Source of the DNA: a virus
Reading direction: 5' to 3' (one strand)
Length of the DNA: 50,182 nt
Virus record (IMG/VR): IMGVR_UViG_3300046318_000184
Span: 1 to 50,182 of that record
In this document: positions 3,225 to 4,458 of the stretch, piece after piece
Layout of the letters: every line of letters begins with the position of its first letter
How positions within the stretch are numbered: the stretch's first letter is position 1
Notes under the pieces: model-generated
What the model was told of the DNA's origin: nothing
Databases searched by the model: none
The model's input: only the letters and a program-made list of their open reading frames with translations
Position numbers and translations under genes: made by a program

Positions 3225-3596
3225 TTACTTCTGGTGAATCATTAGGTCTAGGCCGTTGTCTGGGTGGTACGACCACTCAGCTTCAAAGCCATCCCAGTCG
3301 CCAGTCTGTTTACCATCGAGCGCACGAGTAGTCTCCACGCTGTTGATAATGAACTCAGGCATCTTGAGCGAAGGAGAGTTGACTACGCAGATAACATCGT
3401 CAATAGTAGCGCCCTCATACTCATCTTCACCCATCATGTCTAGGGACAGGGTTTTACCTTCATCACCAATCCGAACTCCAGCCGAGAGGTTACATTCTTC
3501 AGAAACCTTCTGAAGGGCTGTAGGACCCATGGAACATCCGGAAAGTGTTGCTGCCAATAGGCCAGCGATGCCAACAATGGCAAGTGTCTTTTTCAT
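3225..3596 (-). CDS. Secreted lipoprotein, 123 aa
   Basis: The N-terminus is a type II signal peptide: Lys2-Lys3, a hydrophobic core (LAIVGIAGLLAATL) and a lipobox LSGC with Cys21 as the lipidated residue. The mature part is acidic and resembles no enzyme; part of it reads IDDVICVVNSPSLKMPE. Phage lipoproteins displayed on the host membrane often mediate superinfection exclusion, and that is a reasonable but unproven role. It is the first gene after the RNA-block terminator, with its own extended -10 promoter, and is followed two bases later by the methyltransferase. Confidence 0.8.
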   Translation of the reverse strand: MKKTLAIVGIAGLLAATLSGCSMGPTALQKVSEECNLSAGVRIGDEGKTLSLDMMGEDEYEGATIDDVICVVNSPSLKMPEFIINSVETTRALDGKQTGDWDGFEAEWSYHPDNGLDLMIHQK

Positions 3597-3668: not shown

Positions 3669-4110
3669 TTATCCCCAGGCATCGAGCCCACCGTCCGGAG
3701 GGCCATTACCCGTTCGACCGCCTAACGGTCTGGTAAGTTTAAGGTGTCGTTCGTGGAACATGGTTCGTCTCCCAAGAGATTCCCAACGACTCTATCCACC
3801 TAGACGGTCACCTGCATGGTCTCAGCCTGAACGCTTACCCAACTCAGATACTATCGATGCCGCCAAGGCTGGCTTCGGTGGTAGCAGCAGACACAGAAGT
3901 TGTTCAGACTTCTGCCTTACGTGGGTAGTCAGGACTCGCACCTGAAGCATTCTCAATATAACCCCGAAGGGACTGACTACTACCCTGCCAAGTAACTTAG
4001 AACTACTTGACTGCTTCGCCGCGATTCTAAGTCGCTTTGAGCATTAAACATCTAGCCTTTACAACTAGAGTAACCCACCGCATATGGGGGCCTCTGCACC
4101 GATAGTGATG
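3669..4110 (-). ncRNA. Probable large structured non-coding RNA, family unknown
   Basis: About 440 bases between the tmRNA and a strong terminator have no convincing reading frame but many complementary segments. Clear helices are ACTTAGAA/TTCTAAGT (3,995-4,002 with 4,025-4,032, 8 bp), GTAGTCAG/CTGACTAC (3,925-3,932 with 3,973-3,980, 8 bp), CAGAAGT/ACTTCTG (3,894-3,900 with 3,908-3,914, 7 bp), TCTAG/CTAGA (4,051-4,055 with 4,065-4,069), TCAGG/CCTGA around a 7-base TGCGAGT loop that resembles a tRNA T-arm (3,929-3,945), and GACCG/CGGTC (3,716-3,730). I could not fold complete tRNAs, and RNase P signature segments are absent. Ornate phage RNAs such as GOLLD or ROOL lie near phage tRNA-type genes, but I cannot confirm membership. 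The exact ends are uncertain. Confidence 0.55.
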
Positions 4111-4118
4111 ATGCATAG

Positions 4119-4458
4119 TGGAGATGCGGGGAATCGAACCCCGGTCCAATTATGGATCCATTGTTCTTCTACAAGCTTAGGCAGTTTATATTTCCAGGAC
4201 CGAACTGCCACATCCTGTGGTGCTGGGGTTTTACGTCCACAGCATCGACGTACTACAAGTTGTCCTATTTATTTAGAACCTGACTGCCCAGCTAGAACTA
4301 CTGCTTTGTCAGGGGCCTAACGGCGAATCCTAAGATTACGCAGCTAGAGCGAATGCAGAACGAGATTCAGCATTTATTTTGTTTAGCGGTTTTACGAGAC
4401 TCCGCTATCTCGGCTTGCTTCACCAACTTCAGAATAACTGTCGAAACCAGTCATCCCC
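4119..4458 (-). ncRNA. ssrA: Transfer-messenger RNA (tmRNA)
   Basis: The 5' end GGGGATG (4,452-4,458) pairs with CATCTCC (4,120-4,126) to form the acceptor stem. The T-arm CGGGG-TTCGATT-CCCCG lies just before it, and the 5' domain reads GACTGGTTTCGACAG, as in other tmRNAs. The resume codon is GCT after AATAAAT, and the encoded tag is AESRSAFALAA followed by TAA (4,336-4,371). Its ALAA end is the standard ClpXP degron. CCA is not encoded after the discriminator A. The one-piece form and length of about 340 nt are normal. tmRNA rescues stalled ribosomes and tags the incomplete protein. It is probably driven by -10 sequences just upstream, at the end of the HNH gene. Confidence 0.95.

Follow-up and report, generated by a model that had tools for sequence, protein, structure and literature searches.

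A phage tmRNA gene is followed by structured and probably exchangeable RNA modules

The window analysed here is a 50,182-nucleotide stretch of viral DNA (IMG/VR record IMGVR_UViG_3300046318_000184), in which the minus strand of positions 3669-4117 is non-coding and structured, lies directly 3' of a phage tmRNA gene and has a terminator at its end. The features of the locus are as follows.

4116-4458, minus strand: phage tmRNA, tag AESRSAFALAA, called by ARAGORN and by Rfam model RF00023 (150.1 bits)
3986-4117, minus strand: body of module beta, with hairpins P1 (4095-4115), P2 (4072-4092) and P3 (4051-4069) and a variable 3' hairpin region; homologue at L067:2184-2303
3922-3985, minus strand: 3' part of module beta, a tRNA-like structure found by T-arm/acceptor motif scan; homologue at L067:2304-2367
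3745-3920, minus strand: module alpha, 176 nt, with four double compensatory pairs; homologue at about L067:1755-1930
3739-4115, minus strand: 377-bp block missing from the three nearest relatives, whose tmRNA is joined directly to e5
3673-3734, minus strand: element e5, a two-hairpin structure directly ahead of the terminator, kept in L002/L003/L005 and L061/L062
3645-3670, minus strand: intrinsic terminator, with an 11-bp stem and a T-tract

A first-pass annotation had read about 440 bases of this region as one large structured RNA of unknown family, free of any convincing reading frame, and on the latter point it is borne out. Across six frames the longest open stretch reaches at most 91 codons, and the sole ORF common to the region and its homologue is antisense (3760-3945), with four synonymous against 15 non-synonymous codon changes, a substitution pattern that led us to reject a protein-coding reading. 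The terminator that had been noted after the region was found at 3670-3645. Ordinary tRNA genes, which could have accounted for the region, were not called there by ARAGORN at default stringency, with or without introns; an intron-bearing tRNA was likewise rejected, and no cloverleaf with an anticodon arm emerged from ARAGORN or RF00005, the weak calls obtained at relaxed, low-threshold settings disagreeing between settings. A consensus scan upstream of the tmRNA returned no sigma-70-type promoter. Links to Streptomyces phages suggest the Actinobacteria as host group.

The nearest relatives of the window are three IMG/VR contigs (L002, L003 and L005, plus overlaps) whose neighbouring proteins are 85-96% identical; these have the tmRNA and all sequence from 3738 on in common with the window, and are without exactly 3739-4115. 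Their tmRNA itself (at about 2332-2672 in L002, with L003 and L005 alike) keeps the tag frame, but ARAGORN does not call it, and its T-arm is aberrant (GGGGCTCTCGGATGCCCC). In L061 and L062, which are more distant relatives, the slot is filled by about 270 nt of unrelated sequence that contains a promoter-like TTGACA-17-TAGGCT and is followed by e5 and a terminator. Between tmRNA and e5, alpha and beta are thus replaced in these two contigs by another RNA, about 220 nt long, which folds extensively and to which the promoter-like sequence belongs. Because relatives either lack the 377-bp block or carry an unrelated insert, the slot behind the tmRNA is, as judged from these alignments, a hot spot of exchange, with e5 staying beside the terminator while the gene behind it changes. 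Throughout the three lineages e5 always stands ahead of a terminator, and among its three sequences two pairs show double compensation and another pair takes three standard types. The position of e5 and the terminator just upstream of a lipoprotein gene (3225-3596), in the window as in L002, would fit a cis-acting leader or riboswitch, possibly including alpha, that controls this gene; yet L061 and L062 keep e5 and the terminator ahead of a different gene, whose start reads like a recombinase, and in L067 a tRNA comes after alpha and no gene lies directly behind beta, so that we regard such a leader as improbable.

The folding energy of the region is moderately better than that of shuffled sequences (z of -2.26 on the minus strand and -1.80 on the plus strand), which required a comparison with relatives; alpha alone folds no better than shuffles (z of -0.31). 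Single-sequence folding is thus weak evidence here, and it is the covariation in sequence alignments that shows structure. Of the well-formed helices reported by the first-pass annotation, the inverted repeats are present, including exact 8-bp pairs at 3995-4002/4025-4032, 3925-3932/3973-3980 and 3678-3685/3854-3861, but some helices picked by eye, the last of these pairs among them, span different modules and are probably due to chance.

A pattern built from the T-arm of the window retrieved two contigs of 57 and 28 kb, L067 and L068, which are identical over the 5.8 kb that they share in these loci, such that alpha and beta are each known from two distinct sequences only. In L067, beta (2184-2367) lies directly behind a 78-nt tmRNA-type RNA without an mRNA part, itself a full-length match to the tmRNA model (RF00023, 61.4 bits), whereas alpha (about 1755-1930) sits between a weak tRNA-Glu-like element and a tRNA-Thr and is separated from them by one to three bases. 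Since the two modules lie apart in L067, and in an order that is the reverse of that in the window, they are independent units. Their borders fall at tRNA-like 3' ends in both phages (CCACTATGCA ahead of beta and CACGTAAG ahead of alpha). Beyond the modules and the tmRNA 3' end, the loci compared, of 11 and 8 kb, show no DNA similarity to the window, with identities of 28-47% for the best proteins; for this reason alpha and beta either move between phages on their own or are held by strong selection. When 50,697 named phage records were queried with the region, with the array of L067 and with the tRNA-like part of beta, neither module turned up. A T-arm pattern match in a further contig, L069, lies near neither a tRNA nor a tmRNA and shows no similarity beyond the pattern, and was put down to chance.

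This arrangement also bears on the proposal that the region is one large ornate RNA and a divergent member of GOLLD or ROOL. Its position beside phage tmRNA and tRNA genes is the one in which those RNAs occur (PMC12286853), but GOLLD and ROOL are one long transcript, with many GOLLD RNAs exceeding 800 nt, whereas here a tail of about 440-450 nt comprises at least three modules, two of which are separable and re-ordered in L067. Neither covariance model matched at gathering score or at permissive E-values up to 5-10; RNase P RNA and group I intron models, which had been named as further candidates, gave no match in the region, and the manA model RF01745 gave none in the window. Of the original description, what stands is a structured region beside a tmRNA whose modules alpha, beta and e5 had no match in a search of 4227 Rfam families; that the region is a divergent GOLLD or ROOL is highly improbable.

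Alpha, which begins two bases beyond the end of beta, is 89% identical to its L067 homologue over 182 bases. Covariation in homologues had been proposed as a check on structure, and it was found in alpha, in e5 and, for one pair, in hairpin P3 of beta. Nineteen of the 176 positions of alpha differ, and eight of the 19 fall in four pairs that changed on both sides and still pair; random placement of the substitutions on the window-derived structure gave a mean of 0.35 double compensations, with four or more in 2 of 20,000 trials, and on the L067 structure four were reached in 4 of 20,000. The fold comprises a covarying hairpin (3893-3915) and a long-range helix joining 3877-3884 to 3792-3800. 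A GGTAAG/CTTACC pairing around alpha was dropped, its 3' half being missing in L067. Two sets of possible additional homologues were dismissed as chance, namely a 22-bit match of the alpha model in Streptomyces phage LuckySocke, which runs across annotated genes 145/146, and six contig matches to a 19-base alpha pattern that share just 19-22 bases with the region.

Beta spans 3922-4117, starting right behind the tmRNA 3' end. Besides the compensated pair in P3, P1-P3 show compatible single changes; the 8-bp pair 4025-4032/3995-4002 belongs to the variable 3' hairpin region. The middle of the module is not alignable between the window and L067, and RNAalifold pairs there (alignment columns 85-117) were discounted because the alignment is unreliable. 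The 3' part, 64 nt long and 97% identical between the otherwise dissimilar phages, has a 7-bp acceptor (GGGTAGT/ACTACCC), one long arm and a T-arm (3929-3946) with the loop UGCGAGU (TGCGAGT in DNA), and is without an anticodon arm. A T-arm-like hairpin noted earlier at this site, apart from any complete tRNA, is real, and no tRNA is called by ARAGORN, but the hairpin forms part of a complete tRNA-like structure. This structure is not a tRNA-like domain (TLD) of the tmRNA type, since neither the D-loop sequence of tmRNA nor the G3-U70 pair is present in it.

Arrays parallel to that of the window, made up of tmRNA, tRNA-like and structured elements, occur in 16 further contigs that were found through a conserved motif and in most of which a tmRNA lies beside it. 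Downstream of the tmRNA in L004, L019 and L040-L055 (for example L019:5318-5940), structured elements A, B, C, D and E appear in an order shuffled among contigs, with true tRNAs interspersed. Element C is pseudoknot-like and contains GGTCTRCCCGTCCTAGGCAACGGAA; B is a cloverleaf of 83 nt and D one of 64-72 nt with four helices, 98.9% of cells paired and three double-changed pairs. B, D and the 3' part of beta have in common the T-loop UGCRANY, with G in place of the tRNA U55, and we accordingly defined a putative class by a 6-7 bp acceptor stacked on a T-arm, a 7-nt UGCRANY loop and a CCA-like end. A scan for acceptor plus T-arm returned 16 distinct G55 cases, beta's structure among those with the motif, and none in three shuffles; with other bases at position 55 it returned no case for A, one odd case for C and 15 for the normal U. 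A covariance model of D matches B, with E from 0.0002 to 0.03, and also finds a copy in Streptomyces phage BRock, with E of about 0.009. Since the same model does not match beta's tRNA-like part at E up to 10, the proposed kinship of beta with the G55 class is a matter of the acceptor/T-arm motif alone. A tRNA-like structure with T-loop TGCAAAT lies at L077:2585-2681 of BRock, a cultured phage, where it is unannotated on this strand.

One account of these structures is that they are decayed tRNA genes, functionless remains, as the missing anticodon and the fast turnover of the slot among relatives might suggest. Decay does not predict the compensatory changes in alpha and e5, the 97% identity of beta's tRNA-like part across dissimilar phages or the same T-loop variant in 16 distinct structures, and we consider it very improbable.

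The tmRNA-type RNA ahead of beta in L067 also has counterparts. TLD-only tmRNA-like RNAs, each about 78 nt long, are found at L067:2105-2182, at L076:2501-2579 (LuckySocke), at L077:2501-2585 (BRock) and in L083, L084 and L085; they carry G3-U70 and a conserved internal GCCGYAYRCGG hairpin, and in Streptomyces phage tRNA arrays they are unannotated, with a called ORF overlapping in GiJojo. Mycobacteriophage DS6A is known to have a TLD-only tmRNA, and a molecule similar to it is a strong inhibitor of tmRNA, perhaps through titration of SmpB (PMC4131195); by analogy, the RNAs listed here may inhibit trans-translation.

These observations give weight to an alternative in which the anticodon-less structures act as decoys that occupy host SmpB, EF-Tu, CCA enzyme or tRNA-cutting defence nucleases, with the tRNA-like end of beta as the effector. 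In its favour, the G55 T-loop and T-stem are invariant across nine D sequences, the tmRNA that adjoins beta is full in one phage and TLD-only in the other, and TLD-only tmRNAs recur in L067, Streptomyces phages and DS6A; against it, beta's own structure is not a TLD. We judge this decoy function unlikely, although it is the main rival and is compatible with the explanation that we prefer. A broader version, in which phages of this group have an undescribed class of small RNAs centred on G55 tRNA-like structures without an anticodon, trade them in cassettes bordered by tRNA-like 3' ends and use them as decoys for the host tRNA or ribosome-rescue machinery beside full or TLD-only tmRNAs, is a tentative and likewise unlikely proposal.

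The explanation that we prefer, and think probable, is that the 3' tail of the tmRNA unit carries two exchangeable structured RNA genes, beta and alpha, which are cut from a precursor and act in trans, and behind them e5 as a structured pre-terminator element. We regard the structure of alpha and e5, the homology, the modular rearrangement, the orientation and the terminator as demonstrated. From these, a single precursor would begin upstream of the tmRNA, end at the terminator and be cut by tRNA-processing enzymes at the ends of tmRNA, tRNA and tRNA-like structures, with RNase P acting at 5' sides and RNase Z or exonucleases at 3' ends. Beta and alpha would thereby be released as stable, trans-acting small RNAs. 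Given the missing anticodon and the G at position 55, where tRNAs have U, the tRNA-like end would stand outside translation and decoding, and would serve instead for processing and 3'-end protection.

Phage tRNA/tmRNA islands are usually annotated for tRNAs alone, and here the seemingly empty bases between these genes appear to contain RNA genes that are conserved and mobile, among them a recurring tRNA mimic overlooked by tRNA finders. Should they be expressed, these would provide a defined, testable set of phage RNAs for studying the roles of tRNA islands beyond codon supply, and the accompanying TLD-only tmRNAs make interference with ribosome rescue directly testable.

Several known systems resemble parts of this locus. 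GOLLD and ROOL, structured phage RNAs of unknown function that are often near tRNA islands (PMC12286853), are alike in lying by tmRNA and tRNA genes, and differ in length, in model match and in not being separate modules. The manA RNA, described as a leader of genes (PMC2864571), is alike as a structured phage RNA, with one copy in the related array L043, and is different in structure. That copy (L043:10150-10330, minus strand; RF01745, 67 bits) lies in a tmRNA/tRNA array and is followed by a terminator-like hairpin and a tRNA-Asn with no protein gene, at odds with the leader description. The DS6A TLD-only tmRNA shares with beta the character of a phage tRNA mimic without an anticodon, and L067 places such an RNA directly ahead of beta, but beta's tRNA-like part has another T-loop besides lacking the TLD hallmarks. 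The T-loop sequence of the staphylococcal tRNA-Gly used for peptidoglycan is GUGC, the UGC of which equals the UGC seen here. This isoacceptor is a tRNA form kept out of translation (PMC4810233); it has an anticodon and is charged, making the analogy a functional one only. Structured phage RNAs near tRNA islands are thus already a known kind, and alpha, beta and e5 appear new relative to the families searched; no description of these elements was found in the mainly open-access literature that was covered. The T4 tRNA cluster encodes the stable RNAs C and D, small non-tRNA RNAs of unknown function, which we liken by description to the window modules in that both are co-encoded with phage tRNA-type genes; unlike RNAs C and D, the window modules adjoin a tmRNA and appear to be exchanged between phages.
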